From: Prolixibacteraceae bacterium
GTDB lineage: Bacteria > Bacteroidota > Bacteroidia > Bacteroidales > Prolixibacteraceae
Length of the DNA stretch: 64,000 nucleotides
Direction of reading: 5' to 3'
NCBI GenBank assembly: GCA_028683385.1
Contig: JAQUIJ010000016.1
Coordinates: forward strand, 1-64,000
Of the stretch, positions 37,938 to 60,962 are shown piece after piece. Within the stretch, counting starts at the first letter, position 1. Every line of letters begins with the position of its first letter. The notes under the pieces are model-generated. The model was not told the origin of the DNA, searched no databases, and saw only the letters and a list, made by a program, of their open reading frames with translations. Both the position numbers and the translations under genes were made by a program.

Positions 37938-38498
37938 TTGAAGCTCTTCATTAAATATATGGTCTCGATGCGTTGTAAGATGGTTGTAAAATCTGAGTTA
38001 GATAAACTTGGCTTACATTATACAAAGATAGAACTGGGCGAAGTCGAAGTCATGGAAAATCTCACTGAGGAACAACTGAAACTATTAAAATATTCATTAC
38101 TACAATCAGGACTTGAGTTGATGGACAATCAAAAGTCAATACTGATTGAGAAAATCAAAAATACCATTTTAGAAATGGTACTTTATAATGAAGAAATGCC
38201 AAAAATAAATTTCTCCGAACATCTCAGCAATAAACTCAAGCACGACTATACATACCTGGCCAATCTTTTTTCAGAAGTAACCGGTGTCACCATAGAGCAT
38301 TACATTATTATTCATAAAATTGAACGGGTTAAAGAATTGATACTCTTTGACGAGCTCAATTTGACCGAAATAGCTTTTAAATTAAACTACAGCAGCGTTG
38401 CTCATCTATCCAATCAATTTAAAAAGATAACCGGACTAACACCTACTTTCTTTAAATATCTCAGAAATAAAAAGATAACTGCACTAAATGATGTGTGA
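37938..38498 (+). CDS. AraC-family transcriptional regulator (first copy)
   Basis: A 186-residue regulator read from a TTG start (MKLFIKYMVSMRCKMVVKSE); an ATG at codon 8 is the alternative. The N-terminal 80 residues form a small domain of alternating strands and helices (GLHYTKIELGEVEVMENLTE). The C-terminal double HTH (about 95-180) has VKELILFDELNLTEIAFKLN and SSVAHLSNQFKKITGLTPTF. No sugar-binding cupin is present, so it probably senses another signal. It lacks the eight-copy promoter itself, but copy P1 starts over its stop codon. It is a paralogue of the 39210-39791 product, and one or both may bind the repeated promoter. Confidence 0.85.
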   Translation: MKLFIKYMVSMRCKMVVKSELDKLGLHYTKIELGEVEVMENLTEEQLKLLKYSLLQSGLELMDNQKSILIEKIKNTILEMVLYNEEMPKINFSEHLSNKLKHDYTYLANLFSEVTGVTIEHYIIIHKIERVKELILFDELNLTEIAFKLNYSSVAHLSNQFKKITGLTPTFFKYLRNKKITALNDV

Positions 38499-38557
38499 AT
38501 CATGTAAGTATTTTTGGAAATTGTGTAACAGCAAAATCTGAATTGTAATGACCTTTG
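38493..38557 (+). promoter_or_regulatory. Stress-island promoter P1
   Basis: Box 1 GTGTGAATCATGTAA, box 2 TTGTGTAAC starting 28 bp later, and a GACCTTTG -7 box (ACCTTTG at 38551, 30 bp after box 2). Box 1 overlaps the stop codon of the first AraC gene. It drives the Lmo0937-like gene at 38588. Confidence 0.8.
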
Positions 38558-38587
38558 ATTTGTTCAAATAAATCTAAATTAAAAATC

Positions 38588-38743
38588 ATGGGAAATCTAC
38601 TTTATTTGGTTGCAGTCATATTAATTATTGCCTGGTTAATTGGCTTTGTTGGTTACAATGCAGGAGGTATTATTCACATTCTTTTGGTAATTGCCATTGT
38701 TGCAATCATTCTTCGGGTAATCCAGGGACGAAGAGTGCTTTAA
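38588..38743 (+). CDS. Lmo0937-family small membrane protein
   Basis: A 51-residue protein starting MGNLLYLVAVILIIAWLIGF, with two TM helices and the family's GGIIHILLVIAIVAIILRVI and terminal QGRR. The ATG at 38588 lies about 30 bp after the -7 box of P1; the longer TTG-started reading would begin inside the promoter and is rejected. A near-copy lies at 48305-48460. The family is associated with envelope stress; the biochemical role is unknown. Confidence 0.85.
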   Translation: MGNLLYLVAVILIIAWLIGFVGYNAGGIIHILLVIAIVAIILRVIQGRRVL

Positions 38744-38872
38744 AAGCCGCTGCTCTCCTATATTTTGCTTTGTTTTTCCTGTTGGTGTTCTCGCCAGCAG
38801 GAAAAACTCAATATTTCTATACGCTTCACAAAACCATTTCTTTTCAACAAACACATTTTTAAAATTTAAATC

Positions 38873-39094
38873 ATGCGATTAAGAACATTAGGAATTATCC
38901 TGGGTATCATTGGAATAGTAATGATAATATACACCGGGTTCAATTATGTAACTACCGAAAAAGTAGTTGATTTAGGCCCTATTAAAATAAATGCAGAAAA
39001 AAACCACCCTGTACAATGGTCGCCAATTGTTGGTATTGCATTGCTCGTTGGAGGTATTGTGATTGTATTAACCGACAAAAAAGGCAAAGCATAA
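38873..39094 (+). CDS. Small two-TM membrane protein
   Basis: A 73-residue protein: TM1 LGIILGIIGIVMIIYTGFNY, a periplasmic loop with TTEKVVDLGPIKINAEK, and TM2 WSPIVGIALLVGGIVIVLTD. Similar unnamed proteins accompany CsbD and UspA genes in Bacteroidota. It shares a transcript with the Lmo0937-like gene (129 bp apart) under P1. Confidence 0.75.
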   Translation: MRLRTLGIILGIIGIVMIIYTGFNYVTTEKVVDLGPIKINAEKNHPVQWSPIVGIALLVGGIVIVLTDKKGKA

Positions 39095-39116
39095 AAAACC
39101 AGTATTTAGCCTAAAT

Positions 39117-39181
39117 GTGTGAATTGTGTAACTTATTTAAAGAGTTGTGTAATATTCCGGAAATAAATAAGTGCACCTTTG
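39117..39181 (+). promoter_or_regulatory. Stress-island promoter P2 (AraC/kinase operon)
   Basis: Box 1 GTGTGAATTGTGTAAC, box 2 TTGTGTAA at +28, and CACCTTTG (ACCTTTG at 39175, 30 bp after box 2). It precedes the second AraC gene, so the regulator may activate its own synthesis. Confidence 0.8.
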
Positions 39182-39209
39182 ACCATCTCAGGTTAAAATA
39201 AAAGAAAAA

Positions 39210-39791
39210 TTGAAACTATACATCAAATACATGGTAAGTAACCGTTGTAAAATAGCGGTGAAAGATGAGTTGAAAAAACTTGGATTGCATTTTATTGTGG
39301 TTGATTTAGGTGAAGTAGAAATCATGGAGAGCCTCACTCCTGAAAAGCGTGAACAGGTGAAAATGGCTCTATTTGACTCAGGATTTGAGCTAATGGACGA
39401 CAAGCGCGCGGTTTTGATTGAACGAATAAAAAATACAATTATTGAAATGGTTCATCATACTGATGAGCTAATTAAAACAAACTTCTCTATTTATCTTAGC
39501 GAAAAGCTTAACCACGATTACACCTATCTGGCCAACTTATTTTCCGAAGTACAGGGAACTACCATCGAACAATTTATCATCTCGCATAAAATTGAACGGA
39601 TTAAAGAGTTGATTATATATGGAGAAGAGAACATTACAGAAATTGCATGGCGGATGAATTACAGTAGTGTCGCTCATTTATCCAATCAGTTTAAAAAAGT
39701 AACAGGCCTTTCGCCGTCGCATTTTAAGCAATTGAAGGATAAAAGACGAAGCCCCATTGAAGAAATCGGGAATTCAAACGAAATAAATTAA
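39210..39791 (+). CDS. AraC-family transcriptional regulator (second copy, autoregulated)
   Basis: A 193-residue regulator read from a TTG start (MKLYIKYMVSNRCKIAVKDE), conserved in frame and position with the first copy; ATG at codon 8 is the alternative. The same short N-terminal domain is followed by the double HTH (IKELIIYGEENITEIAWRMN and SSVAHLSNQFKKVTGLSPSH). It is the first gene of an operon with the hybrid kinase and a REC-only protein and is preceded by promoter copy P2. It is a good candidate for the activator that binds all eight promoters. Confidence 0.88.
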   Translation: MKLYIKYMVSNRCKIAVKDELKKLGLHFIVVDLGEVEIMESLTPEKREQVKMALFDSGFELMDDKRAVLIERIKNTIIEMVHHTDELIKTNFSIYLSEKLNHDYTYLANLFSEVQGTTIEQFIISHKIERIKELIIYGEENITEIAWRMNYSSVAHLSNQFKKVTGLSPSHFKQLKDKRRSPIEEIGNSNEIN

Positions 39792-39805
39792 CAGAAGAAT
39801 TATTC

Positions 39806-42800
39806 ATGAAAATCAGATCTAAAAATCAGATAAATCTCTTCTATATCTTTACTGTTGTTCTACTTGTGTGCTTTTTGTTGATTTTCTATACCAACTTTAA
39901 AAAAATCAAATCATCAAATAATATGGTGGAACATACTCAGGAAGTGTTCCGCATGAGTGATGGAGTCCTTCTGGATATTCTAAATATGTCAATCAATACC
40001 AGGGGCTATTTATTAACCGGAAATGATAGCATTTTGAAGGATGATGAAATTGCAATTCCTAAATTGTATCAGAACATCTCAAAATTGGCTTTGCTCACCA
40101 CAGACAACCCAGAACAGCAAGCACGTATTGATTCATTGAAAAAGTTAGTGGATGAAAGATTCGTTTTATCGAAAAAAATGATTTCTGACTGGAAGAAGAT
40201 TGAATTGTATAAGAATGAAAAAAAAGAAATCATTCAGTTAGGGAAAATTGGAAACGAAAAAATCAGAAGTATAATTTCTGATTTTAATTTGGCTGAGTTT
40301 AACATGCTTAAACAAATTAAAATAGAAAATGAAAAGAGTGCTAAAAATTCAGAAATAATATTTTTATTACTTATAGTTTCGATTTTGGTAATTTTTGGAT
40401 TAATAATAATATCAATTACCAATCAGAAAATCAGGTTAAAAGAAATGCGGGCATTTACTACTGCCCAAAAATCACTCTCCAAATATTCGTTGAGTTTAAT
40501 TGAAGCGAGTCTTGATCCTTTGGTCACGATTAGTAATGAAGGTAAGATCACTGATATGAATGAGGCACTGGTGAATATCACAGGTATATCCCGAGAAGAA
40601 TTCACTGGTACCGACTTTCTGAATTATTTCACAGAACCACAAAAGGCTCGCGAAGTATATCAGGAAGTATTTGCAAAAGGATCTGTTGCTAATTCGCCCC
40701 TCACACTTCGCCATAAAGATGGTAAATTAACTGATGTATCATTTAACGGATCAGTTTATAAAGATGACCAGGGAAATGTACTTGGAGCAGTAGTTGTAGC
40801 CAGAGACACTGCTGAACAAAAATGGGCCATGGAGCTTCAAATAGCCAATAAAGAGCTTGCTTTCCAAAACGATGAAAAGGAAAAACGCGCTGAAGAGTTA
40901 CAAATTGCAAACAAAGAACTTGCCTTCCAAAATAAAGAAAAGGAGAAACGGGCTGATGAACTACAAATTGCCAACAAAGAACTTGCTTTCCAAAACGATG
41001 AAAAGGAGAAACGGGCTGATGAGTTAAGCCTTGCCAATAAAGAACTTGTCTTTCAAAACAAAGAGAAAGAAAAACGAGCAAAAGAGTTAATTATAACTGA
41101 CAACGAACTTGAATATCAAACCAGAGAAAAAGAAAAAAGCGAATTTGCTAATTTAGAACTGGAAGCATTCAGTAATTCCTTAAAACTGGCATCTCAGTAT
41201 TCGCTAAGCCTTATAGAAGCAAGCCTTGATCCACTGGTTACCATTAGCGGTAAAGGTAAGATAATGGATATGAATGAGGCATTGGCCAACATAACCGGGT
41301 TGACACGTACCGAATTAATAGGTACCGACTTCCTGAATTATTTCACAGAACCACAAAAAGCTCGCGAAGTGTATCAGCAAGTATTTGCAAAAGGATCTGT
41401 TGCCGATTCGCCACTTACAATATGCCACAAAGATGGCAAGCTGACTGATGTATTGTTCAACGGATCGGTATATAAAGATGATTTGGGCGAAGTATTGGGT
41501 GCCGTAATTGTTGCGCGTGACGTAACGGCCCAAAAATTATTGTCCCAATATTCACTGAGTTTAATAGAAGCTAGCCTCGATCCTTTGGTGACTATCAATA
41601 TAGAAGGAAAGATTACCGATGTGAATGAAGCTACTGTAAACATTACTGGTCTGGAACGCGAAAAACTTAAAGGAACTGATTTCTTCGATTATTTTACCGA
41701 ACCAGAAAAAGCGCGTAACGTTTACCGAGAAGTTTTTGCAAAAGGATCTGTTATCGATTCACCACTTACTCTTCGTCACCAAAATGGCAAGTTGACCGAC
41801 GTATTGTTTAACGGATCGGTTTATACAGATGACCATGAAAATGTACTTGGAGTTGTAATTGTTGCTCGTGATGTAACCGAACAGAAAAGAGCTGCAACAG
41901 AACTGACAGAGGCTATTGTATTTGCCGAAATGGCGACATTGATTGCGGAAGAAGCAAAAAGCAAGGCTGAAAGTGCCACCAAAATTGCTGAAGATGCGGT
42001 GAAAGCAAAACAACAATTCCTTTCGAACATGAGTCACGAAATCCGAACGCCAATGAATGCGATTATCGGATTTACGAAAGTGGTACTAAAAACCGATTTA
42101 TCAGTAAAACAAAAAGAATATTTACAGGCCATAAAGTTAAGTGGTGATGCATTAATCGTGCTCATAAACGACATACTCGATCTAGCCAAAGTTGACGCCG
42201 GGAAAATGACATTTGAGCAAGCGCCTTTTAAAATGGCTTTATCCATATCGGCCATGCTCCATTTGTTTGAGCCTAAAATACAGGAAAAAAATTTAAAACT
42301 GATAAAAGAATACGACCACAGAATTCCGGAGGTGTTACTTGGCGATCCGGTGCGATTACACCAAATCATATTAAATCTGGTAAGTAATGCTGTAAAGTTC
42401 ACAACAAGAGGAAAGATTACCGTGAGTGTCAATCTGGTCGATGAAAATGATGATAAAGTAACCATCGAATTTATAGTTTCTGATACCGGTATTGGAATAC
42501 CTGAATCTAAAATAGAAAAGATTTTCGAAAACTTTCAGCAGGCATCCAGTGGCACAACCCGTTTATACGGAGGAACCGGACTTGGACTTGCCATTGTAAA
42601 ACAATTAGTTGAAGCTCAGGATGGAAGTATTAGCGTAAGCAGTAAAATTAATGAAGGCTCCAGCTTTAGTTTTAAATTAAGTTTTCAGAAAACCGGATCT
42701 AAAGTTGAATCTGACATTGAACTGATTGAATTGAATAATGAAGCTATTAATATCGACGTACTGGTTGTTGAAGACATTGCACTCAATCAATTATTGATGA

Positions 42801-43522
42801 GAACATTACTAGATGATTTTGGATTTGGATGTGACATAGCTGACAACGGAAAAATAGCCATCGAAAAAATGCGCATCAAACAGTACGACGTTATTCTGAT
42901 GGATCTGCAAATGCCTGAAATGAATGGTTTTGAAGCTACCGATTACATTCGGAACCTAATGAATTGCGACATCCCCATCATCGCATTAACTGCTGATGTA
43001 ACAACGGTTGATCTGGCTAAATGCAAATCGGTTGGAATGAACGATTACATTGCAAAACCGGTGGATGAAAGATTGTTGTACACTAAAATAATCAGCTTAG
43101 TAAAAAAAACCTCACTGGTTATAGATCCTGAAGTGAGTATAGTTGATAAAGCAATGCACATAAAATGTACGAACCTGGAATATTTAAATATTCGAACCAA
43201 ATCAAATAAGTTATTGATGATGGAAATGATTTCACTCTATTTGAAACAGACTCCACCACTGATTATTTCGATGAAACAAGGGTTGCGCGAAAAAGATTGG
43301 AATTTATTATACTCGGCTGTTCATAAAATGATTCCATCCTTTTCAATCATGGGAATTAATTCCGATTTCGAAGATATGGCCAAAAAAGTTCAGGAATATG
43401 CCAGCAACCAACAGCATTCAGAAGGAATACCCGAAATGGTGCTTCAGCTCGAAGAAGTATGTGAGCAGGCATGTGTTGAATTAACTGAGGAATATGATAC
43501 GTTTAAAACTAATAAGTTATGA
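39806..43522 (+). CDS. Hybrid histidine kinase (CHASE3-PAS3-HisKA-HATPase-REC-HPt)
   Basis: A 1238-residue membrane sensor kinase. Two TMs (about 10-30 and 180-205) flank a CHASE3-type helical sensor. Three near-identical PAS domains follow (starting about residues 225, 462 and 578, each with YSLSLIEASLDPLVTI). PAS1 and PAS2 are separated by five 21-residue coiled-coil repeats (ELQIANKELAFQN...EKEKRA). HisKA has His744 in NMSHEIRTPMN, and the ATPase has DTGIGIPESK and GGTGLGLAIVK. The REC domain has Asp1033 (ILMDLQMPEMNGF), and a C-terminal HPt has His1173 (AVHKMIPSFS). Its stop overlaps the next gene (ATGA). It can relay phosphate to the REC-only partner. Confidence 0.92.
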   Translation: MKIRSKNQINLFYIFTVVLLVCFLLIFYTNFKKIKSSNNMVEHTQEVFRMSDGVLLDILNMSINTRGYLLTGNDSILKDDEIAIPKLYQNISKLALLTTDNPEQQARIDSLKKLVDERFVLSKKMISDWKKIELYKNEKKEIIQLGKIGNEKIRSIISDFNLAEFNMLKQIKIENEKSAKNSEIIFLLLIVSILVIFGLIIISITNQKIRLKEMRAFTTAQKSLSKYSLSLIEASLDPLVTISNEGKITDMNEALVNITGISREEFTGTDFLNYFTEPQKAREVYQEVFAKGSVANSPLTLRHKDGKLTDVSFNGSVYKDDQGNVLGAVVVARDTAEQKWAMELQIANKELAFQNDEKEKRAEELQIANKELAFQNKEKEKRADELQIANKELAFQNDEKEKRADELSLANKELVFQNKEKEKRAKELIITDNELEYQTREKEKSEFANLELEAFSNSLKLASQYSLSLIEASLDPLVTISGKGKIMDMNEALANITGLTRTELIGTDFLNYFTEPQKAREVYQQVFAKGSVADSPLTICHKDGKLTDVLFNGSVYKDDLGEVLGAVIVARDVTAQKLLSQYSLSLIEASLDPLVTINIEGKITDVNEATVNITGLEREKLKGTDFFDYFTEPEKARNVYREVFAKGSVIDSPLTLRHQNGKLTDVLFNGSVYTDDHENVLGVVIVARDVTEQKRAATELTEAIVFAEMATLIAEEAKSKAESATKIAEDAVKAKQQFLSNMSHEIRTPMNAIIGFTKVVLKTDLSVKQKEYLQAIKLSGDALIVLINDILDLAKVDAGKMTFEQAPFKMALSISAMLHLFEPKIQEKNLKLIKEYDHRIPEVLLGDPVRLHQIILNLVSNAVKFTTRGKITVSVNLVDENDDKVTIEFIVSDTGIGIPESKIEKIFENFQQASSGTTRLYGGTGLGLAIVKQLVEAQDGSISVSSKINEGSSFSFKLSFQKTGSKVESDIELIELNNEAINIDVLVVEDIALNQLLMRTLLDDFGFGCDIADNGKIAIEKMRIKQYDVILMDLQMPEMNGFEATDYIRNLMNCDIPIIALTADVTTVDLAKCKSVGMNDYIAKPVDERLLYTKIISLVKKTSLVIDPEVSIVDKAMHIKCTNLEYLNIRTKSNKLLMMEMISLYLKQTPPLIISMKQGLREKDWNLLYSAVHKMIPSFSIMGINSDFEDMAKKVQEYASNQQHSEGIPEMVLQLEEVCEQACVELTEEYDTFKTNKL
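40833..41150 (+). repeat. 63-bp tandem repeats in the kinase gene
   Basis: Five consecutive 63-bp units encode 21-residue coiled-coil repeats (ELQIANKELAFQN, then (D/K)EKEKRA). Units 1-3 are nearly identical and 4-5 are more diverged. Three heptads per unit make a register-preserving signalling helix; copy number may vary between strains. Confidence 0.85.
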
Positions 43523-43953
43523 AAAATAAGGATAAAATAAAGCTCTTTCTTGTTGATGATGATGCTGTATTTCTCAAATTATTGGAAATTGAATTTCTGG
43601 AACATGGCGATTTTGATATTGAAACCTTTGCAACGGGAGAACTGTGCATCGAAAATTTATCGCATAATCCGGATGTAATCGTCTTGGATTATTACCTGGA
43701 TGGCGTCGACCGTGATGCGATCAATGGAATCGACACACTGGATCAGATCAGAGCTTTCAATCCCGAGATTCCTGTGGTCATGCTATCATCTCAGGATAAA
43801 ATTGATGTCGCCATCAATTGCATGCACCACAAGGCATTCGATTATGTAGTGAAAAGCGAAACTGCATTCATGCGTTTAAAAAAAATCATTACAACAATAC
43901 TGGAAACTCAAAAACTCGAAAAACAACTGAATTGGTATATGGAACGGATGTAA
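43519..43953 (+). CDS. Single-domain response regulator (REC only)
   Basis: A 144-residue receiver protein with no output domain. Acidic pair in LVDDDAV (residues 12-15), phosphoacceptor Asp57 in IVLDYYLDG, the switch Ser90 in VVMLSSQD and Lys112 in VVKSE are all present. It overlaps the kinase gene by 4 bp. It probably accepts phosphate from the kinase's HPt domain and acts by protein contact, perhaps with an AraC regulator; this partner is inferred. Confidence 0.88.
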   Translation: MKNKDKIKLFLVDDDAVFLKLLEIEFLEHGDFDIETFATGELCIENLSHNPDVIVLDYYLDGVDRDAINGIDTLDQIRAFNPEIPVVMLSSQDKIDVAINCMHHKAFDYVVKSETAFMRLKKIITTILETQKLEKQLNWYMERM

Positions 43954-44028
43954 AAATTTCTTCAAAAAAGATAGCTGAGAACCTCTGGATACAGAGGTTT
44001 TCTTATTTATACCCGATTGCCTTCGAAT

Positions 44029-44094
44029 GTGTGAATGATATAACTCTTAACCGGAATTGTGTAACACTTACCAGAAGTATCCTGACGATCTTTG
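44029..44094 (+). promoter_or_regulatory. Stress-island promoter P3
   Basis: Box 1 GTGTGAATGATATAAC, box 2 TTGTGTAAC at +28, -7 box GATCTTTG (ATCTTTG at 44088, 31 bp after box 2). The central part is nearly identical to P5 at 47522. It drives the small-protein genes 44132-44918. Confidence 0.8.
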
Positions 44095-44131
44095 AATAGT
44101 GAAAATGGTTTCACCAAACAAAAATCTCCTC

Positions 44132-44515
44132 ATGAAGAAATTAACGCTTATTACTCTTTCAGCATTTCTGATGTTATCGGTTATCCCAAACCAAATCAAA
44201 GCCGCAACAAATGCTGAGGCTGAAAAAACAGTAACAATATCAACCGAAACAATAAAAAGCAATGATCAGTTAAACGAAATCAAATCGATTGATTTAACGG
44301 CATTAAGCACTTCTGAAAATAAAGAAGTTTTGAAGGAAGCAAGCCCGCTATTAAACGAGCAAGGTCGTCACAATGGCAGATACAATCACCGACGCAATAG
44401 AGACGTTGACGTTACCATACAATCAGACCGCACTTATGGACATCGCCATAATGGAGCATACATTGGCGGTGGTGGAGTATTGGTTCTGATTCTGATTTTA
44501 ATTCTGGTACTTTAA
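44132..44515 (+). CDS. Exported small protein with hydrophobic C-terminal anchor
   Basis: A 127-residue protein with a signal peptide (MKKLTLITLSAFLMLSVIPN...IKA). The mature N-terminal part is Thr/Glu/Ser-rich, then comes a His/Arg/Asn-rich part (GRHNGRYNHRRNRDVDVTIQ). The C-terminus is GGGGVLVLILILILVL, a Gly/Leu membrane anchor. A GTG 33 bp upstream would give an extended N-terminus, but the signal peptide supports this ATG. No family was recognised. First gene behind P3. Confidence 0.7.
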   Translation: MKKLTLITLSAFLMLSVIPNQIKAATNAEAEKTVTISTETIKSNDQLNEIKSIDLTALSTSENKEVLKEASPLLNEQGRHNGRYNHRRNRDVDVTIQSDRTYGHRHNGAYIGGGGVLVLILILILVL

Positions 44516-44527
44516 AAATTAAGCATT

Positions 44528-44713
44528 ATGCCATTATTAACTATTTTACTAGTAATAATTGTTGTGGGAGTCCTGCTTTGGCTGGTTAATTCATTCCTTC
44601 CCATGGATCACAACATCAAAAAAATTCTGAATGTTGTAGTTATCATTATTCTAATCGTCTGGCTGCTCAAAGTATTTGGAATATTCAGTAGCCTAATGGA
44701 CATCCACATCTAA
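44528..44713 (+). CDS. Thivi_2564-family small membrane protein
   Basis: A 61-residue protein with two TMs: MPLLTILLVIIVVGVLLWLV and NVVVIIILIVWLLKVFGIF, separated by PMDHNIKKILN. This is the layout of the Thivi_2564 family. It lies 12 bp after the previous gene and is under P3. Confidence 0.75.
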   Translation: MPLLTILLVIIVVGVLLWLVNSFLPMDHNIKKILNVVVIIILIVWLLKVFGIFSSLMDIHI

Positions 44714-44723
44714 CACACACAAT

Positions 44724-44918
44724 ATGAATCTGAAAAGAATCTTTGGCGGCCTCCTTACTTTACTCGGAACGGGTGCTCTTATTTATGCTGCTGTATTATT
44801 TGTCAATGAATCAGCTGGTAAAAATGATACCAGAGCACTTATTATATATGGTATTCTTGGGTTCGTTTTCTTTATTGCAGGCATCAACCTAATACGCACA
44901 ACAAAAGATGAAGCATAA
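44724..44918 (+). CDS. Small two-TM membrane protein
   Basis: A 64-residue protein with two TMs (FGGLLTLLGTGALIYAAVLF and LIIYGILGFVFFIAGINLIR) and a short charged loop (NESAGKNDTRA). No family recognised. Third gene of the P3 operon; a strong hairpin follows 75 bp later. Confidence 0.7.
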   Translation: MNLKRIFGGLLTLLGTGALIYAAVLFVNESAGKNDTRALIIYGILGFVFFIAGINLIRTTKDEA

Positions 44919-44993
44919 GTTGCAAATTCCAATATGATCAGAATTGTTTTCAGATTAAGTTAATTATCGTTTGGAAAATGCAACAAGTTACAA

Positions 44994-45032: not shown

Positions 45033-45158
45033 ATTACATCGATATCAAAGGTATTTTGATGTCGAATTTTAATAACTCACGAAAAGAGCTGATTGCAAAT
45101 TCGTAAACACTACCTTCGGAAAAATAGTACACGAAATTTACTATACAAAACTAGAATC

Positions 45159-46754: not shown

Positions 46755-46853
46755 TGCATTTTGAATCCGTTTTGCATTTAAGGACACAAAATTAAATAAG
46801 TACTAAGTTAATGGAATGAAATAATGTCGTATATATTATTGGTCAAAATCTTG

Positions 46854-46939
46854 ACTCACCCCATCGCATCTTCGATGCTCTGCCCCTCTCTACGCGTAGA
46901 GAGGGGAAAAGCACTCCGCAAGGAGGGCTCGGGGTGAGT
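46854..46939. repeat. Cloverleaf-like palindromic element
   Basis: An outer stem ACTCACCCC (46854-46862) / GGGGTGAGT (46931-46939) encloses three hairpins: GCATC-ttc-GATGC (46866-46878), a perfect 24-bp palindrome with arms CCCCTCTCTACG (46883-46906), and CTCC-gcaa-GGAG (46914-46925). It is flanked by ATGTCG and CGACAT and by near-repeats TATATTATTGGTC and TATATTGGTC. It looks like a non-autonomous mobile or REP-type element. Confidence 0.7.
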
Positions 46940-47001
46940 GAATTTAAAATGCGACATTATATTGGTCTAATTACTTAAATTGTCACATTGTCAATGTTAA
47001 T

Positions 47002-47067
47002 GTGAGAATAATGTAAATTTTAAGTGGAATTATGCAACATGAATGAGTGTTGCAATCTTCAACTTTG
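47002..47067 (+). promoter_or_regulatory. Stress-island promoter P4 (diverged)
   Basis: Box 1 GTGAGAATAATGTAA (two mismatches to the common form), box 2 TTATGCAAC at +28, -7 box CAACTTTG (AACTTTG at 47061, 31 bp after box 2). Spacing is conserved although the boxes are weaker. It precedes the CsbD-like gene at 47105. Confidence 0.6.
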
Positions 47068-47104
47068 TAATGTGAAAATGTTTTCACCTCCTAAGTCTAT
47101 AAAC

Positions 47105-47290
47105 ATGGACACTAAAACATTTAAAGCTAATTTGGGGGCAGAAAAAGGCAAACTTAAACAGAAGTTTGCAAACCTGACCGATGATGATTTACTACTCGAA
47201 GAAGGAAGAAAAGAAGAGGTAGAAGGGAAAAATGAAGCCTTATTTTTTCAAAACGAAGAGGAATTGAAAAAATTTCTTACTTCATGGTAA
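47105..47290 (+). CDS. CsbD-like stress protein (first copy)
   Basis: A 61-residue protein starting MDTKTFKANLGAEKGKLKQK, with the CsbD core KGKLKQKFANLTDDDLLLEE and a charged C-terminus (EELKKFLTSW). The chosen ATG lies 38 bp after the -7 box of P4; earlier starts would fall in the promoter. CsbD proteins are general-stress proteins of unknown biochemistry. It diverges from the copy at 47629 after the core. Confidence 0.8.
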   Translation: MDTKTFKANLGAEKGKLKQKFANLTDDDLLLEEGRKEEVEGKNEALFFQNEEELKKFLTSW

Positions 47291-47628
47291 TTCTTAACTT
47301 AAGTTCAGGCTTGCAAATAATTCCCAATAATTGACCTGAAAAGTGATCCCCAATAGGAAGTAAAAAAAGTGGTCTTTCGATACACATTTTTTATTTCGAA
47401 AAAATCTGAATCCACCATTCCTCATCGTTTTGAATTTACTTTCAAGAATTTCGGAATAAACCCGACGAAAAAAACATCAATTCAAAAATTATCCTGATTA
47501 AATCGTTTTTCATCGCCTAATGTGTGAATGATGTAACTCTTAACCGGAATTGTGTAATGCTTTCGGGTACCAGATACGTGACCTTTGAGTAATGAAAATT
47601 TATTCATCCACAGATAAAACGAAAAACA
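47291..47628. other. Intergenic region with promoter P5
   Basis: About 340 bp, AT-rich, no gene. The repeated words CCCAATA (47322-47355) and the promoter copy P5 at 47522-47587 are the only features seen. Confidence 0.6.
47522..47587 (+). promoter_or_regulatory. Stress-island promoter P5
   Basis: Box 1 GTGTGAATGATGTAAC, box 2 TTGTGTAA at +28, -7 box GACCTTTG (ACCTTTG at 47581, 31 bp after box 2). This is the closest to the consensus. It drives the long run of genes from 47629. Confidence 0.85.
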
Positions 47629-47814
47629 ATGAACACATCAGAAGTAACCGGAAACTGGAATACAATCAAAGGCAAGCTCAAACAGAAATTTGCCGGACTA
47701 ACAGACAATGACTTTATGTTTGCTGACGGCATAAACGATGAGATGATTGGCCGACTCCAGATCAAGCTTGGCAAAACCAAGGAAGAAATGAAAAACATAA
47801 TTAATGCACTTTAA
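47629..47814 (+). CDS. CsbD family stress protein (second copy)
   Basis: A 61-residue protein starting MNTSEVTGNWNTIKGKLKQK. It has the full CsbD pattern: GKLKQKFAGLTDNDFMFADG and DEMIGRLQIKLGKTKEEMKN. First gene of the P5 operon. The family is induced by general stress in many bacteria; biochemical function unknown. Confidence 0.9.
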   Translation: MNTSEVTGNWNTIKGKLKQKFAGLTDNDFMFADGINDEMIGRLQIKLGKTKEEMKNIINAL

Positions 47815-49242: not shown

Positions 49243-49248
49243 AAGACT

Positions 49249-54397: not shown

Positions 54398-54421
54398 TTT
54401 TAACCGGGATAACTTCAAAAT

Positions 54422-56842
54422 ATGAAAACGAAAAAAGATTCACACCCAAAAAGTATAGACCTAAAAAAAATAAAGAAAAATCCTCTTTCAAAGGAAATGT
54501 TGGGTAAAATGCATGCCTATTGGCGGGCCGCAAACTACCTTTCTGTCGGACAACTTTATCTGCGCGACAATCCCTTGCTTCGTAAGCCATTGGAACTTTC
54601 GCATGTAAAATCGATGTTACTTGGACATTGGGGCACTACCCCGGGACAAAACTTTATATACGCACACCTTAATCGCGTCATTAAGAAATATGATCTTGAT
54701 ATGTTTTACGTTGCAGGTCCGGGTCACGGTGGCCCGGCTTTGGTAGGAAATGTCTATTTGGAAGGAACTTACAGCGAAATCTATCCAACCATCACGCAAG
54801 ATGAAGCTGGACTAAAAAAACTGTTTACTCAATTTTCTTTTCCTGGTGGAATTCCCAGCCATGTTTCGCCCCATTGCCCCGGATCAATTCACGAAGGAGG
54901 TGAATTGGGATATTCGCTCAGTCATGCTTTTGGAGCTGCATTCGACAATCCTGACCTGATTGTGGCCTGCATTGTTGGAGACGGCGAAGCTGAAACCGGC
55001 CCGCTGGCCACGGCCTGGCACTCCAACAAATTTTTGAATCCAATAACCGACGGTGCCGTATTGCCAATCCTTCACCTCAACGGCTACAAAATTGCCAATC
55101 CCACCATATTTGCCCGAATTCCACACGACGAATTGGAGCAATTGCTGATAGGATATGGCTGGAAACCCTATTTCGTGGAAGGTGATGAACCTGAGAGGAT
55201 GCACCAGTTGATGGCTGCAGCAGTAGAAAAATCCATTCTGAAAATTAAGAAAATACAAGGTCATGCACGAATTAAAAATGATGCTGACCGACCTCTATGG
55301 CCAATGATTGTGCTCAAATCGCCCAAAGGTTGGACCGGTCCAAAAGAAGTTGATGGAATGCCAATTGAAGGGACTTTTCGCTCTCATCAAATTCCGTTGC
55401 AGGTCGATTCCGATCATCCTCATCATTTAAAACTTCTGGAAGAATGGATGAAAAGCTATAAGCCTGAAGAATTATTCGATGAAAATGGCACGCTCCTACC
55501 CGAGTTGGCCGAACTCGCTCCAAAAGGCGAACGCCGGATGGGTGCAAATCCACACGCCAATGGTGGACTTTTATTGCACGATTTGAATATGCCTGACTTC
55601 CGAAAATATGCCGTGGAAGTTCCTTCACCGGGTTCGGTTCAGGCTGCCGATACGCACGAATTGGGAGAATTTCTTCGCGAAGTGGTCACGCTCAATCAAG
55701 AGCAACAAAACTTCAGGATATTTGGTCCAGACGAGACTCTTTCGAATCGATTGAACGCTGTTTTTGAAGTAACTAACCGGCAATGGGAAGCCAAAACAAA
55801 AAAGAACGATGAATTCCTGGCTACCGAAGGTCGTGTAATGGAAGTATTGAGCGAACATCAGTGTGAAGGATGGCTGGAAGGCTATCTCCTCACCGGAAGA
55901 CATGGACTATTTAACTGCTACGAAGCGTTCATTCACATCGTTGATTCGATGTTTAATCAACATGCCAAATGGCTGAAAATTAGCAACAAGTTACCCTGGA
56001 GAAAGGAAATCGCATCGCTGAATTATCTGCTTGCTTCGCATGTCTGGCAGCAGGCACACAATGGCGATACGCATCAGGATCCGGGATTTATCGATCATGT
56101 GGTTAATAAAAAGGCTTCCATTGTGAGGGTCTATCTACCACCCGATGCCAATTGCTTATTATCTGTTTGGGATCATTGTTTAAGAAGCCGTAACTATGTA
56201 AATGTTGTTGTTGCCGGTAAATATCAGGCACCGCAGTGGTTAAGCATGGATGAAGCAATTGAACATTGCACTAAGGGAATTGGAGTATGGAAATGGGCCA
56301 GCAACGATGAAGGTGGCGAACCCGATGTTGTAATGGCCAGTTGCGGCGATGTGCCAACACTCGAATCGTTGGCAGCAGTTTCAATCCTTCGCGAACATTT
56401 GCCCGAGCTGAAAATCAGGGTGGTTAATGTGGTCGATCTGATGAAACTCGAACCCAATACTGAACATCCGCACGGGTTAACAGACACTGAATTCGATGCC
56501 TTGTTTACGAAAGACAAGCCGATTGTTTTTGCTTTTCACGGATATCCTAAACTAATCCACCAATTGGCATACCGTCGCACTAACCACGACAACATGCATG
56601 TTCGTGGTTATAAAGAAGAAGGAACCATAACCACTTTTTTCGACAACCTGGTTCTCAACGACCTTGACCGCTTTCATTTAGTGATAGATGTGATCAATCG
56701 GTTACCACAAATGACTGAAAAAGCAGCTAAACTGAAACGAGTGTTAGAAGATAAGCTTATTAAACACAGGGCATACATTAACAAAAATGGTCAGGATATG
56801 CCTGAAATCCGAAACTGGAAATGGAAACAAAACGCAAAATAG
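54422..56842 (+). CDS. xfp: Phosphoketolase (xylulose 5-P/fructose 6-P)
   Basis: An 806-residue thiamine-diphosphate enzyme that splits xylulose 5-phosphate or fructose 6-phosphate to acetyl phosphate. The ThDP motif is [19 protein letters not shown] (about residues 180-198), with the phosphoketolase signatures [40 protein letters not shown] and the C-terminal [14 protein letters not shown]. Length is normal. It sits between transaldolase and RpiB, forming a three-gene carbon-shunt module. Product acetyl phosphate can give ATP or serve as phosphodonor. Confidence 0.95.
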
Positions 56843-56855
56843 AAAGGGAAATAAT

Positions 56856-57317
56856 ATGCACGATAAAGCAACAATGCGCATTGGAATGGCAGCCGATCAT
56901 GGAGGGTTTGAGTTAAAAGCTCAACTAATCCTGACCCTAACCGTTGCAGGTTACCAGGTAACCGATTTTGGAGCCAATGAATTAATCGCAGGTGACGACT
57001 ATCCTGATTATGTGGTACCACTAGCCAGGGCAGTTTCAAGAGGTGAGATTACCCGCGGGCTGGCCATCTGCGGCAGCGGCGTTGGAGCTTGCGTTGCCGC
57101 CAACAAAGTATCAGGAGTCCGGGCAGCTTTAATTACAGATACTTTCTCTGCTCATCAGGGAGTTGAAGATGATGACATGAATGTAATGTGTCTCGGAGGC
57201 CGCATTACCGGATCTTCGCTTGCCTGGGAATTGGTTCAGGCATTCCTCAATGCTGATTTCAAGACAGAAGAAAAATATACGCGCCGCCTAAATAAGATAT
57301 CCGCTTTGGAAAAGTAA
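56856..57317 (+). CDS. rpiB: Ribose-5-phosphate isomerase B (RpiB/LacAB family)
   Basis: A 153-residue isomerase starting MHDKATMRIGMAADHGGFEL. Active-site text: AADHGGFELK, DFGANELIAGDDYPDYVVPL and the Cys loop AICGSGVGACVAANKVSG, with MNVMCLGGRI at the end. It interconverts ribulose 5-phosphate and ribose 5-phosphate. The ATG lies 13 bp after the phosphoketolase stop, and it completes the pentose-phosphate module. Confidence 0.9.
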   Translation: MHDKATMRIGMAADHGGFELKAQLILTLTVAGYQVTDFGANELIAGDDYPDYVVPLARAVSRGEITRGLAICGSGVGACVAANKVSGVRAALITDTFSAHQGVEDDDMNVMCLGGRITGSSLAWELVQAFLNADFKTEEKYTRRLNKISALEK

Positions 57318-57444
57318 AAAAAGAATTAAACGGGAAAAAATGTGACGAAATCTCGATTTGCCGGATATACCTCCAACAGAAGGACATGCAGATCCCACAA
57401 AAGATACAGAGTAACTTAACTTTCATATCACGAACAAAAATAAA

Positions 57445-57882
57445 ATGGCAACGCAAAAAACCTGGCATGAAAAGCATCATGCCTCATTAAGCTTTGGGGG
57501 TCGTGTGGCTGACGCAGTGGCAAATGGGATGGGTTCCTGGAAGTTCATCATCCTTCAAACGGTCCTAGTTCTTCTTTGGATGGGATTAAATCTTGTCGGA
57601 TTTATGTTTCATTGGGATGTCTATCCTTTCATATTGCTCAATCTACTTTTCTCTACACAGGCAGCTTATGCAGCGCCTATTATCATGATGTCGCAAAACC
57701 GACAAAATGAACGCGACCGAATGCATGCTGAGCAGGACTACAAAACAAACAAAGATGCAAAACAGGAAATAGAGGCTTTAACAATTAAGCTTAAGTCACT
57801 TGAAGTGGACAAACTAGATAAAATCATAGAAATGCTTCAGGAACAAAGAAACAATTCAACAAAAAAGAATCTAGCCAATTAG
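57445..57882 (+). CDS. DUF1003 membrane protein
   Basis: A 145-residue protein with the DUF1003 pattern: FGGRVADAVANGMGSWKFII, two TMs (LQTVLVLLWMGLNLVGFMF and YPFILLNLLFSTQAAYAAPI) and a helical C-terminus (NRQNERDRMHAEQDYKTNKD) ending in a coiled coil. DUF1003 proteins are small inner-membrane proteins associated with stress and ion homeostasis; exact role unknown. 127 bp after rpiB. Confidence 0.85.
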   Translation: MATQKTWHEKHHASLSFGGRVADAVANGMGSWKFIILQTVLVLLWMGLNLVGFMFHWDVYPFILLNLLFSTQAAYAAPIIMMSQNRQNERDRMHAEQDYKTNKDAKQEIEALTIKLKSLEVDKLDKIIEMLQEQRNNSTKKNLAN

Positions 57883-58023
57883 TACTTCATTATTCATATA
57901 GAGTTGAGAGGTCGTTTCGAACTCACTACCAGTTGTCAGTCAGGATTTCGGAATTTACTGCATAGAAATGAGATGCTAAACTAAATTCGGTATGACAATA
58001 CAATTAAAAAGTGTCTCCTAAAT

Positions 58024-58089
58024 GTGTGAATGATGTAACTCCTTTCAAAAACTATGTAACATTTTTCGAAGCGAAAGATCTCACCTTTG
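58024..58089 (+). promoter_or_regulatory. Stress-island promoter P6
   Basis: Box 1 GTGTGAATGATGTAAC, box 2 CTATGTAAC at +28, -7 box CACCTTTG (ACCTTTG at 58083, 31 bp after box 2). It precedes the lipoprotein gene at 58149. Confidence 0.8.
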
Positions 58090-58148
58090 AACAGTGAAAA
58101 TAAGTTCACACCTGTTCCGCCAGAAGCGGTTTACATATACCAAGCGAT

Positions 58149-58955
58149 ATGATCAAAATAAAAAAAGTAATGCTCATGCTATCGATAATGACAGCAGCAA
58201 TTCTGCTGATCACCGGTGGATGTAAAAAAGATAATACACCAGCACAAAGTACAAGCTACGACCTGATGGTTAAAGATGTATTGGGAGTAAGCGGTACGGT
58301 CTCTTTTACAGAGCGTAACAGTTCCTCAGCGATTATAGACATTGTTCTGGTTAATGCACCAGCGGGAACCCATCCGGCCAATCTGTACATGAATTCGGCA
58401 GTTGAAAATGGGGCAGTTGTTATTGCTCTTAATCCGGTTGATGCAAATGGAAAAAGTTCAACCGTAGTAACTGAAATGAATTATTCATCGTTAATCGCGT
58501 ACGATGGATACATTAAAGTATTAAGCAGCAGCGCCGAACCTGATGTAATTCTTGCCCAGGGTGATATCGGTGGAAACGTAATCACAGCAACCAAAAAATC
58601 CTATGTTTTGAACTTGGTTGGTGTATATGGCGTGTCAGGAACTGCCTTATTTGAGAAAAGGGTAAATGGAAATACACTCCTGACGGTTTCACTAACTGGC
58701 ATGATACCAGGTGATACTTATCCGGCAACAATTAATTTGGGTTCCATCGCTTCAGTTGGCGGAGGCCCGGTTGTGATGGTGTTGAGTAACGTGAATGGCA
58801 CTACCGGAAAAAGTTATACGAATATCCAAAAACTGGATGGTGGAACCAACATCACCTACGAAAATTGGCTAGTGTATGACGGTAATTTAAATATCTATAA
58901 AAGCCCTGTCACCGTAGCAAATATTATTTGTCAGGGAAATATAGGAGCAAATTAG
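58149..58955 (+). CDS. Lipoprotein with two CHRD-like repeats
   Basis: A 268-residue lipoprotein: signal and lipobox LLITGGC with the modified Cys near residue 25. Two similar beta domains follow (about 40-145 and 150-265), each with GVSGT at the start, then APAGTHPANLYMNSAVENGA or GDTYPATINLGSIASVGGGP, and ending in IL(A)QGDIG or ICQGNIG. The pattern resembles CHRD domains, which occur in secreted proteins of unknown role. It is a single-gene unit between P6 and a strong terminator. Confidence 0.65.
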   Translation: MIKIKKVMLMLSIMTAAILLITGGCKKDNTPAQSTSYDLMVKDVLGVSGTVSFTERNSSSAIIDIVLVNAPAGTHPANLYMNSAVENGAVVIALNPVDANGKSSTVVTEMNYSSLIAYDGYIKVLSSSAEPDVILAQGDIGGNVITATKKSYVLNLVGVYGVSGTALFEKRVNGNTLLTVSLTGMIPGDTYPATINLGSIASVGGGPVVMVLSNVNGTTGKSYTNIQKLDGGTNITYENWLVYDGNLNIYKSPVTVANIICQGNIGAN

Positions 58956-58987
58956 TCCTCATTTTCTGTGGCTAAAATACAATCAAT

Positions 58988-59036
58988 AAAAACACCCTCA
59001 GGTTCTCTTTTGAATTTCTGAGGGTGTTTTCTTTTA
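58988..59036 (+). terminator. Rho-independent terminator
   Basis: AAAACACCCTCAG and CTGAGGGTGTTTT form a 13-bp stem with a T/C-rich tail (CTTTT). It lies 33 bp after the CHRD-like lipoprotein gene. Confidence 0.88.
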
Positions 59037-59095
59037 AAAGAGTGGCAGTAATTTCTGCATTCAAAGTAGCATTCAGATGGAAACCAAGGGTGAAT

Positions 59096-59161
59096 ATGTG
59101 AATGATGTAATTTCTTCATAAAATTCTGTAACACTTATCAGGCTTAAAAGAATCACATTCG
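59096..59161 (+). promoter_or_regulatory. Stress-island promoter P7
   Basis: Box 1 ATGTGAATGATGTAA, box 2 TTCTGTAAC at +28, -7 box TCACATTCG, the weakest -7 match of the set (ACATTCG at 59155, 31 bp after box 2). It precedes the metal-binding protein gene at 59198. Confidence 0.7.
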
Positions 59162-59197
59162 TGAATTAAAATATTCAAAATTTTAAAAGCGAAAATC

Positions 59198-59665
59198 ATG
59201 AAAAGTAAATTTTTGTTTTCAGTCATCCTTGTAGCCGGATTAATGCTACTGAATTTTTCGGATTCTCAGGTTTATGGTCAAACACAACAAAAGAAAACCG
59301 ATGCAGTGCAAACAGTAAAGTACACCTGCCCGATGCATTCTCAGGTAATTAAGGATAAGCCTGGTAAATGCCCCATCTGTGAAATGAAACTGGTTATCAA
59401 AAAGGAACCTTCAAATAACCTTATGCAACAAATGAACGACTCTACGATGATGAAAAATGATCACATGAAGATGATGCACGATTCAACAAGCATGAAAAAG
59501 GGAGCCATGATGCATGACACAATCCAGATGAAGGGAGGAGGTATGATGAATTACGCAAAGTTGAGGCGCGAAAGGAACATGATGAATGATTCCACCATGA
59601 TGATGAAAGGCCAAATGATGCACGACACCACTTCTATGAAGATGAATCAAATGAAAAAGAAATAA
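59198..59665 (+). CDS. Exported metal-binding protein (heavy-metal-binding YHS-like domain, Met-rich)
   Basis: A 155-residue protein with a signal peptide (MKSKFLFSVILVAGLMLLNF...VYGQ). The domain VKYTCPMHSQVIKDKPGKCP-ICEMKLV has the CPMH/CPxC metal-binding pattern of CzcA/CusA-associated and YHS-like domains. The C-terminal 80 residues are Met/His/Asp-rich with repeated MMHDST, MKKGAMMHD and MMNDSTMMM, plausible copper or silver ligands. It is first behind P7, followed by a SHOCT-protein gene. Confidence 0.8.
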   Translation: MKSKFLFSVILVAGLMLLNFSDSQVYGQTQQKKTDAVQTVKYTCPMHSQVIKDKPGKCPICEMKLVIKKEPSNNLMQQMNDSTMMKNDHMKMMHDSTSMKKGAMMHDTIQMKGGGMMNYAKLRRERNMMNDSTMMMKGQMMHDTTSMKMNQMKKK

Positions 59666-59700
59666 CAATCGGATTAACCCAGAATTTAAATTCAAATATC

Positions 59701-59934
59701 ATGATGAACGGAAACGAAATGACTAATGGTTGGGGAATGGGTTATGGATATGGCTGGATTGTTGGCCTTATCATCCTTATTGTAGTTATTGTAGTAGTTG
59801 CAAGTGCTTTGCGACGTCGCAAAAATTCGCCTGGCATAAAGTATAATTCGCCACACGATATCTTAAAAGTAAGATATGCCAAGGGTGAAATCAGCAAAGA
59901 TGAATATGACGAAAAAAGAAGACATATTTCATAA
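59701..59934 (+). CDS. SHOCT-domain small membrane protein
   Basis: A 77-residue protein: Met/Gly/Trp-rich N-terminus (NGWGMGYGYGW), one TM (IVGLIILIVVIVVVASALRR) and a C-terminal SHOCT motif (DILKVRYAKGEISKDEYDEK). SHOCT domains are short oligomerisation or binding modules at protein ends. 35 bp after the metal-binding gene, same P7 operon. Confidence 0.85.
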   Translation: MMNGNEMTNGWGMGYGYGWIVGLIILIVVIVVVASALRRRKNSPGIKYNSPHDILKVRYAKGEISKDEYDEKRRHIS

Positions 59935-60116
59935 TCAGGTATATGGCTTTAAAAAGTTAAAATAAATATACAATGGTAAAAGCGCTGTCTGAGTTTGTAT
60001 TAAAAGTAAGAACAGGTAGATTATCAGCCATCTGAAAGATTCAGGTTAATGATTTGGCAAATCGATTCGCAATATCGCAAACCAATAATTCACGTTTAAT
60101 TTAAAAATTCAAGCGA

Positions 60117-60668
60117 ATGACAAAATTGTTTATTATAGCCATGTTATTTATCTCGGTTTGTGCTACTGCAAAAACGAAACATCAATCATTCCAAAACGAT
60201 GACTACAGGATTTCTACCGATACTGCGAAAGAAATTACAGCATCACTTACAAAAGAAGAAAGCTATAAGATTTATCTGAATGATTGCAACACAATTATCA
60301 AGGATACGATTCGTGAATCCGGATATATTAATTATGATACAATCAGAGTATCTTCTATCCCGGAAGACATGATCTATTTTGACAAACCGCTTATTAAATC
60401 GGTTCAGCTATCGAAGGGAGTCGCTAACATTATTGTAGCTGACACTATCTGGAATGTAATTGAGGCTCCTGAATATCGTTCAGGCTCCGAAAATAAAGTC
60501 CTTGCAAACAACGCAATGCCTATATCAAATAAAATTATTCCCGACTATTCCAATAAAATCATCATTTTCAGAATGAGAGTGTACTCATGGAAAAAAAGAA
60601 AACCATTGACTTTAAAAGAATGGGATAAAAATATATCAACAACAAGTAATTATCCGGAAAATTACTAA
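60117..60668 (+). CDS. Exported protein of unknown function
   Basis: A 183-residue protein with a signal peptide (MTKLFIIAMLFISVCATAKT). The mature part is mixed: DYRISTDTAKEITASLTKEE, YINYDTIRVSSIPEDMIYFD and VQLSKGVANIIVADTIWNVI. The C-terminus (WKKRKPLTLKEWDKN) is basic. No family recognised. 182 bp separate it from the SHOCT gene and no copy of the repeated promoter lies in front. Confidence 0.6.
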   Translation: MTKLFIIAMLFISVCATAKTKHQSFQNDDYRISTDTAKEITASLTKEESYKIYLNDCNTIIKDTIRESGYINYDTIRVSSIPEDMIYFDKPLIKSVQLSKGVANIIVADTIWNVIEAPEYRSGSENKVLANNAMPISNKIIPDYSNKIIIFRMRVYSWKKRKPLTLKEWDKNISTTSNYPENY

Positions 60669-60681
60669 ACGAACAGTATTT

Positions 60682-60873
60682 CTAAAAATAATGGTTGAGA
60701 CAGTTTAATTTCATTTCATGAATTGCAGGAAATGAGCACTCAAGTTCCCGTACTATCCGTCGTATTCCCTGTCCTCGAAATTTACTCAGTCCGATGATTG
60801 CTGCGGCTGCCATGAGTCTTAGTTCGGCATCGGTTATAGCAGACGCATTGCAGTTAAGGCACAAATGATTCAC
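60682..60873 (-). CDS. Doubtful 63-residue ORF, possible gene remnant
   Basis: A minus-strand frame giving MNHLCLNCNASAITDAELRL and MAAAAIIGLSKFRGQGIRRI. The ITDAELRLMAAAAIIGLS string recalls small ORFs that recur in Bacteroidota genomes, often near repeats. It faces P8 and is opposite to all its neighbours. Coding is uncertain. Confidence 0.3.
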   Translation of the reverse strand: MNHLCLNCNASAITDAELRLMAAAAIIGLSKFRGQGIRRIVRELECSFPAIHEMKLNCLNHYF

Positions 60874-60896
60874 CCCGAATGCATGTTGTTTGAAAT

Positions 60897-60962
60897 GTGT
60901 GAATAATGTAATTCTTTACGAAAGTTTTGTAACAATTAACCTCTCTCTCCTACTTAACTTAG
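60897..60962 (+). promoter_or_regulatory. Stress-island promoter P8
   Basis: Box 1 GTGTGAATAATGTAA, box 2 TTTTGTAAC at +28, -7 candidate TAACTTAG (60955), one mismatch from TANNTTTG. It precedes the acidic-protein/UspA operon. Confidence 0.7.

Follow-up and report, generated by a model that had tools for sequence, protein, structure and literature searches.

A 64,000-nucleotide (nt) stretch of a Prolixibacteraceae bacterium genome (GCA_028683385.1, contig JAQUIJ010000016.1, positions 1 to 64,000; hereafter the window) harbors repeated copies of a promoter-like module composed of two boxes, together with genes for AraC-type regulators with a predicted copper-chaperone-like (HMA) N-terminal domain (HMA-AraC). 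When scanned with the module pattern GTGTGAATNATGTAA-N13-TTGTGTAA, allowing up to three mismatches, the window contains exactly eight matches, all on the plus strand, against none in 100 dinucleotide shuffles. These are the eight copies that a sequence-only reading of the window had listed, and box 2 lies at +28 from the start of box 1 in every one, as that reading claimed. The module at 38493..38528 (CTTTG at 38553-38557) lies upstream of a gene for a DUF5670/lmo0937-family membrane protein (38588..38743), and that at 39117..39152 (CTTTG at 39177-39181) precedes araC2 (TTG start at 39210). Further downstream, the modules at 44029..44064 (CTTTG at 44090-44094), 47002..47037 (the weakest, with three mismatches; CTTTG at 47063-47067), 47522..47557 (CTTTG at 47583-47587) and 58024..58059 (CTTTG at 58085-58089) are followed, respectively, by a secreted-protein-like gene at 44105, a CsbD-like gene below the Pfam cut-off (47105..47290), a csbD gene (47629..47814) with the genes after it, and a lipoprotein-like gene without a Pfam match (58149..58955). 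The last two modules, at 59096..59131 and 60897..60932, carry ATTCG (59157-59161) and CTTAG (60958-60962) at the -7 position; the former precedes a gene for a secreted protein with a heavy-metal-binding domain (HMBD; 59198..59665), and the latter a gene for an acidic 116-aa protein without a Pfam match (60989..61339) and a universal stress protein (Usp) gene (61367..61840; NCBIfam, below equivalog cut-offs). All of these genes are encoded on the plus strand. The copies were described as intergenic, which is not strictly true of the one at 38493, since its start falls within the final codons of araC1. A long inverted-repeat-like element (CTCACCCC..GGGGTGAG, 46850-46945) was also noted between a GH130 gene and the 47002 module.

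Two HMA-AraC genes flank the first modules. The araC1 gene (37938..38498, plus strand, TTG start) encodes an HTH_18 protein with the motif MVSMRC and an N-terminal extension, sharing 61% identity with araC2 (39210..39791, plus strand, motif MVSNRC), the candidate activator of the regulon. Directly 3' of araC2 lie genes for a PAS hybrid histidine kinase (39806..43522) and a response-regulator-like protein (43519..43953), both on the plus strand and named by sequence inspection. The genome as a whole encodes five HMA-AraC regulators, rather than the two AraC proteins first counted.

Most copies of the module lie in a small part of this genome. Across its 5,906,583 bases in 54 contigs, 26 matches were found against none for the reversed-pattern control, so that no background of random matches is apparent. 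The contig holding the window (C9) ends at 132 kb and carries 23 of the 26 between 38.5 kb and its end, a span of 94 kb, and three lie on other contigs. A weaker module is present at C9:70834 (33 bits). A site matrix made from 24 of 27 sites (the script pattern had missed those on contigs C2 and C26) gave 24 plus-strand and two minus-strand hits on C9 at a threshold of at least 18 bits, including, besides the extra site at 70834, two weak hits near 19 bits; shuffled sequences gave none on either strand. These genome and matrix scans, with their shuffle controls, led us to reject chance matches or a repeat artefact as the source of the modules. The initial description of eight plus-strand copies across 22 kb thus holds within the window but falls short for the genome, in which two of the 23 C9 modules are on the minus strand (C9:121870 and 123515).

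The geometry of the module was found to be rigid. When the site matrix was slid along itself, the best shift was 21 (score -2.1), followed by 28 (-9.2), with the remaining shifts scoring -18 to -31; equal numbers of columns were compared for shifts of 15-23 and fewer above. This agrees with the proposed 21-bp distance between TGTAA cores and indicates that the core is a direct repeat, AATNRTGTAAC, with units two helical turns apart, relative to which box 1 bears an extra TGTG. In six of the eight window modules (38493, 39117, 44029, 47002, 47522 and 58024), CTTTG starts 24-25 nt past the end of box 2. Among 231 non-redundant related sites (8 of 239 were removed as near-identical), 124 have CTTTG starting 25 nt after box 2, 18 have it at 24 nt and 2 at 26 nt, and TTTG occurs 25-27 nt past box 2 in 178. 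The A three bases ahead of TTTG is conserved in 88% of these sites, the T preceding that A is poorly conserved (C 47%, T 21%), and the sites show no conservation of a -33-type TTTG. The ANNTTTG-type -7 box originally proposed is therefore retained as a general feature, with ATTCG at 59096 and CTTAG at 60897 departing from it. In 20 of the 23 C9 sites with a listed gene, the first gene begins 76-144 bp from the site start; the other three are 73097 (ATG at 106), 65071 (ATG at 393) and 123515 (217). In location and spacing to genes, the module looks like a promoter. The site at C9:65071 (L035:1071) is separated from its radical-SAM-like gene by approximately 300 additional bases that include a palindromic-looking repeat (CCTGAACTTGTTTCAGG type); the related gene in locus L041 sits at the normal distance from its site.

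A fixed spacing to a -7-like box would also be expected if the boxes were recognition elements of an alternative or extracytoplasmic function (ECF) sigma factor. However, box 2 ends 25 nt from CTTTG, beyond the usual -35/-10 distance, and box 1 lies 21 bp higher. Moreover, the housekeeping promoters of Bacteroidota have a -33 element and a -7 element of consensus TAnnTTTG, of which the -7 box of the module keeps the A and the TTTG. Sigma-factor elements were rejected on spacing and are considered very improbable; the promoter geometry argues for an activator.

Conservation of the module beyond this genome was evident in the comparative scans. In a set comprising this genome and 60 relatives, 31 of the 61 had module matches (1 to 42 each), with a total of three for the reversed control, and matches were found in nine of the ten genomes behind the araC loci. 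In a phylum-wide set, 43 of 395 genomes had at least one match, against approximately 14 matches overall for the reversed control, so that single matches in this set are partly background. Eighty related loci, the best 80 of 249 stretches encoding an araC2 relative and chosen on araC2 similarity alone (many from named Flavobacterium species; 1.295 Mb in total), yielded 240 matrix hits scoring 18 bits or more, with at least one hit in 75 loci and none in three shuffles. Of the 79 loci with enough upstream sequence, 64 have a site scoring 10 bits or more in the 400 bp ahead of araC, and 65 of 73 related loci have an open reading frame (ORF) for a PAS/histidine kinase behind araC. Sites and araC2 relatives co-occur: among the 61 genomes, 23 combined four or more sites with an araC2 relative scoring 210 bits or more, none had sites alone, 2 had araC alone and 36 had neither (p = 8e-15), and the corresponding counts for the 395 phylum genomes were 8, 0, 8 and 379 (p = 9e-13) when five or more sites and 240 bits or more were required, and 11, 2, 24 and 358 with the looser limits of three sites and 210 bits, all thresholds having been picked after the counts were known. 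The two earlier proposals, a common regulon and an AraC-type regulator acting on 21-bp direct repeats, are backed comparatively by genome-wide specificity, conservation in relatives, co-occurrence with araC2, the position of sites upstream of araC and, as described below, a shared promoter geometry beside divergent family members. The module reader is most likely araC2 or a paralogue.

The DNA-binding part of these regulators is readily recognized, with an AraC-type double helix-turn-helix (HTH_18, E 2e-16 and above the cut-off) present in all 35 family members. Upstream of the apparent araC ATG, the 80 loci share conserved codons, consisting of a start and KLYIKY, with synonymous variation; the upstream start codon is TTG in 71, ATG in 4, GTG in 3 and CTG in 1, and in L068, near a contig end, the sequence upstream of araC differs from the family. 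The conserved TTG start may keep the level of the regulator low. In copper-type relatives, unlike the TTG-starting stress branch, the first start codon is mostly ATG. With the TTG start, AlphaFold2 models araC2 as a beta-alpha-beta-beta-alpha-beta domain followed by the AraC DNA-binding domain; the extension adds a strand, thereby completing the predicted HMA domain, and the mean predicted local distance difference test (pLDDT) score is 88 with it and 86 without it. Foldseek placed the N-terminal domain with Atx1, GolB, CopZ-type and other copper chaperones at probabilities of 0.99-1.00, with template modelling (TM) scores of 0.71-0.74 by target length (E 0.03-0.08) against Atx1 and GolB, pointing to an HMA fold. 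In a sequence search of solved structures, strong matches were confined to the DNA-binding part, and two heavy-metal-binding proteins appeared at E values of 0.13 and 0.54. In araC1, araC2 and araC3, the metal-binding motif MxCxxC is altered to MxSxxC, serine replacing the first cysteine, and the second cysteine is invariant in all 35 members. SxxC occurs in 80 of the 80 araC2-related loci, which, having been selected by araC2 similarity, represent one clade and not 80 independent cases. In addition, araC2 is 83% identical to a Flavobacterium copy versus 49% for one control enzyme, which is no more than suggestive of horizontal transfer of araC2.

A second line of evidence comes from more divergent members of the family. 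Because a Hymenobacter plasmid relative (44%) adjoins genes for a heavy-metal P-type ATPase and for a cupredoxin, 18 divergent phylum loci (44-51% relatives, hand-picked from a list of phylum relatives) and two paralogues from this genome were sampled. MxCxxC is present in all 18 relatives and in the paralogues on contigs C2 and C34. A copper-type ATPase gene, called by DKTGT and GMxCxxC motifs, lies near 14 of the 18 loci (the L182 copy being cut by a contig end), and none was found near L181, L183, L192 or L195; among the stress-type loci, a DKTGT ATPase occurs within 3.7 kb in 1 of 80, a lower bound since some of these loci end near araC. The pattern TRTAA-N16-TRTAA-N24/25-[ACT]TTTG gave 12 hits in 22 loci (the 20 and two plasmid loci) versus 0.05 in shuffled sequences, and 2 versus 0.03 with strict CTTTG. 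Both distances are sharply defined: an inner gap of 16 gave 12 hits and every other gap from 8 to 27 gave 0 or 1, and when the distance to TTTG was varied over 14-35, only 24 and 25 gave any. The hits precede copZ-like genes (L182, L188, L194 and L197), copper-type ATPases (L184, L189, L191 and L199, the last from this genome), a small HMA-like gene (L184), an HMA-AraC gene (L191) and a gene for a 910-aa protein (L198, also from this genome), and one on a Runella rosea plasmid (L178) lies approximately 365 bp ahead of an ice-binding protein gene. At least one hit was present in 9 of 21 MxCxxC loci. The C2 paralogue in this genome has a stress-type site upstream, and its adjoining copper-type ATPase carries the copper-type variant. 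When 43 sequences were placed in a tree with the C34 paralogue as root, the SxxC members, all 22 of them, grouped as a single clade (support 0.87) nested among CxxC members, a nesting that depends on the root choice. Together, the MxCxxC motif, the copper neighbors and the similar geometry suggest that a copper-linked regulator family seems to control the stress-type regulon; the copper connection points to the HMA-AraC family independently of the stress genes, adding to the case for an AraC-type reader.

Collectively, these results make it probable that the module is an activator-dependent promoter read by HMA-AraC proteins and controlling a stress-type regulon. From the observed sites, geometry, conservation, co-occurrence and gene neighbors, we infer the binding, the activation, the position relative to the transcription start and stress as the signal, as follows. 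Two HMA-AraC monomers would occupy tandem half-sites of the [A/G]TGTAAC type, 21 bp or two helical turns apart, with the downstream half-site near -40, where it would adjoin RNA polymerase at an AnCTTTG -7 element lacking a conserved -33 element. The putative activators are araC2 and probably also its paralogues araC1 and araC3, proteins of approximately 190 residues in which a predicted copper-chaperone-like (HMA-fold) domain at the N-terminus is joined to an AraC DNA-binding domain at the C-terminus. With araC2 under its own promoter and the PAS hybrid kinase gene behind it, the arrangement would provide positive feedback. The regulon would include CsbD, DUF5670, Dps-like, bacterioferritin, Usp, OmpA-like and ice-binding-like proteins. 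The same family seems to run copper loci, where MxCxxC members lie near copZ/copA, part of them with the same geometry, whereas the stress branch carries serine at the position of the first cysteine, retains the second, and has sites with an extended box 1 (GTGTGAAT).

Several observations weigh against this interpretation. The Foldseek E-values of the N-terminal domain are weak (0.03-0.09), an acylphosphatase, which has another ferredoxin-like fold, ranks near the copper chaperones, and at E up to 1 the Pfam HMA profile matches only 3 of 35 members, the best of them at E 0.04, with STAS also matching 3 and no worse. In the copper branch, 12 of 21 MxCxxC loci have no geometry match, and the pattern was written after viewing L189 and L199, which are the only two strict-CTTTG hits, the other hits having been unused in its design. 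The pairing of sites and regulators is also imperfect. Genomes G025 and G036 have a close araC and 2 sites each; 8 of the 16 phylum genomes with a relative of at least 240 bits (G099, G169, G220, G323, G327, G362, G415 and G461) have few sites (1 in G169, 1 in G327 and 0 in G415); and G081 and G086 carry 4 sites with distant araC relatives only. The module pattern is tuned to this genome, and AT-rich variants may escape it. Since the sites are clustered in one island, part of the co-occurrence may reflect joint gain or loss. Three HMA-AraC paralogues are encoded on C9, and sites could be shared among them. Finally, several module targets belong to no known family.

Also against this interpretation, no site lies upstream of araC1, and 15 of the 79 araC loci have none at the threshold used (two of these have 10-11 bits at the edge or farther up). 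These cases, together with the kinase and response-regulator-like genes after araC2, would fit a different scheme in which another DNA-binding protein, for example a response regulator fed by PAS kinases, reads the repeat, and the HMA-AraC genes are mere regulon members travelling along. However, the 21-bp geometry recurs before copZ/copA near divergent HMA-AraC genes, and tandem 21-bp direct repeats are typical for AraC proteins, so this scheme is regarded as unlikely.

The regulon is larger than first described, and for it the AraC reading is well supported by the comparative evidence. Of the eight first genes in the window, three (44105, 58149 and 60989) had no Pfam match at E 0.01. Further first genes on C9 are CsbD-like (71477 and 123676, named by inspection), Dps-like (75286), bacterioferritin (82705), DUF3108 (90043), HEAT-repeat (102551), MarC (110823), MlaE (120984, minus strand) and OmpA-like (122672, minus strand, and 130641), and an ice-binding-like protein is encoded under a module at C9:125423-127369 (L038:1423-3366). 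An ice-binding-like protein is also encoded beside the HMA-AraC gene on the Runella rosea plasmid (L178:10025-11251). The three sites outside C9 precede an HMA-AraC gene (C2), a csbD-like gene (C26, named by inspection) and a patatin-like gene (C51). The assertion that every copy precedes a plus-strand stress operon is borne out for the targets with stress family names and not for the others, and the stress-type label comes from the families to which some of the targets belong by name. When families were counted from simple ATG gene calls across the 80 loci, a site directly precedes 50 of 93 araC, 15 of 21 csbD-like, 9 of 25 DUF5670-like, 18 of 31 lipoprotein-family, 10 of 12 secreted-family and 11 of 18 second-lipoprotein-family genes. 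Sites scoring at least 25 bits number 209, of which 47 lie before araC, 135 before other genes and 27 without an ORF 70-180 nt downstream.

A subset of the promoters carries a palindrome at the expected transcription start. Of 231 related sites, 22 contain the form G[TC]GA-N4..9-TCA[CT], compared with 0.66 in shuffles, and the core word TGAAAAT starts 35 nt past box 2 in 11 sites; five sites in this genome have TGAAAAT at that offset (44029, 47002, 47522, 58024 and 123574). In the window, the plus-strand palindromes at the expected start are GTGAAAATGGTTTCAC (44099..44114), GTGAAAATGTTTTCAC (47072..47087), ATGAAAATTTATTCAT (47592..47607) and GTGAAAATAAGTTCAC (58094..58109), suggesting that in some of the promoters this element may serve as an operator or form a 5' hairpin. 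The form GTGAAAAT..TTCAC is seen in a subset of sites, at the same offset in other genomes. A general hairpin at the start was rejected as a class, being not enriched (25 of 231 versus 17.8 +/- 4.1 in shuffles).

The genes under the modules lie in an island whose gene set is largely common to G012 and G018, partly in the same order. Over C9:111555-123298, protein identity to G012 is 93-99.6% compared with 66-88% for most other genes, which suggests recent exchange with G012. Type I restriction genes (identified by inspection) and a relaxase gene lie at 29300-37012, at the left border of the module cluster, and distant relatives of these genes (22-31% identity) lie beside the G012 island. No tRNA boundary of the island was found in C9 or in 70 kb of G012, integrases not having been searched for. 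A circular contig or plasmid was dismissed for C9, as no overlap of its ends was found. The clustering of 23 of 26 sites in 94 kb, the relaxase and restriction genes, the segment of unusually high identity to G012 and a patchy presence within the genus would all be expected if the modules were cassettes that had been duplicated and transferred as part of a mobile stress island, sharing a promoter without a working common regulator. However, the 21 bp and 25 nt distances are fixed while spacers and target genes vary, off-island sites lie ahead of an HMA-AraC gene and a csbD-like gene, and relatives such as G006 and G010 have sites on several contigs. Cassettes without a common regulator are hence judged quite improbable, and a shared HMA-AraC activator is favored.

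No counterpart of RpoS or sigma-B is, to our knowledge, known in Bacteroidota, and general stress control in this phylum has been little described. More tentatively, and with somewhat more doubt than belief, we propose that a master switch for general stress responses of environmental Bacteroidota arose when a copper-sensing HMA-AraC underwent duplication, gave up one of its metal cysteines, acquired an extended operator and came to command approximately 10-40 promoters per genome, partly as an island moving between lineages. The one cysteine left may serve as a redox sensor or as a shared-metal sensor between two monomers. If true, the conversion of a copper-locus regulator into a stress regulator via one cysteine change would be a clear case of a metal-linked family going global. 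Because the promoter code can be read with a simple pattern and is tied to a single regulator family, stress control in the phylum can be tested directly in Flavobacterium species that are open to cultivation. In open-licence PubMed Central full text, the regulon, the motif and HMA-AraC regulators of the phylum are undescribed among the matches listed, which is not proof of absence; the portions of PMC12234377 and PMC11300592 that were retrieved have no relevance to the regulon.

Compared with known systems, the module resembles the Bacteroidota housekeeping promoter in keeping the -7 A and TTTG at a fixed distance, but it differs in the T of the TA (C 47%, T 21%) and in having no conserved -33 TTTG across the 231 sites. 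In its target families (CsbD, Dps-like, bacterioferritin and Usp), the regulon is similar to those of sigma-B and RpoS, from which it would differ in relying on an AraC-type activator where they depend on an alternative sigma factor. The MxCxxC branch, like the copper-efflux regulators CueR, CsoR and CopY, is linked to copA and copZ, whereas its predicted fusion of an HMA domain to an AraC DNA-binding domain represents another protein class. A mechanistic parallel may be E. coli AraC on araI1/araI2, where class II activation proceeds through tandem direct repeats. Here, a predicted copper-chaperone-like domain takes the place of the arabinose-binding domain and many promoters that of one operon, whereas the AraC-type helix-turn-helix, the half-sites 21 bp apart and the downstream half-site by the core promoter are common to both.

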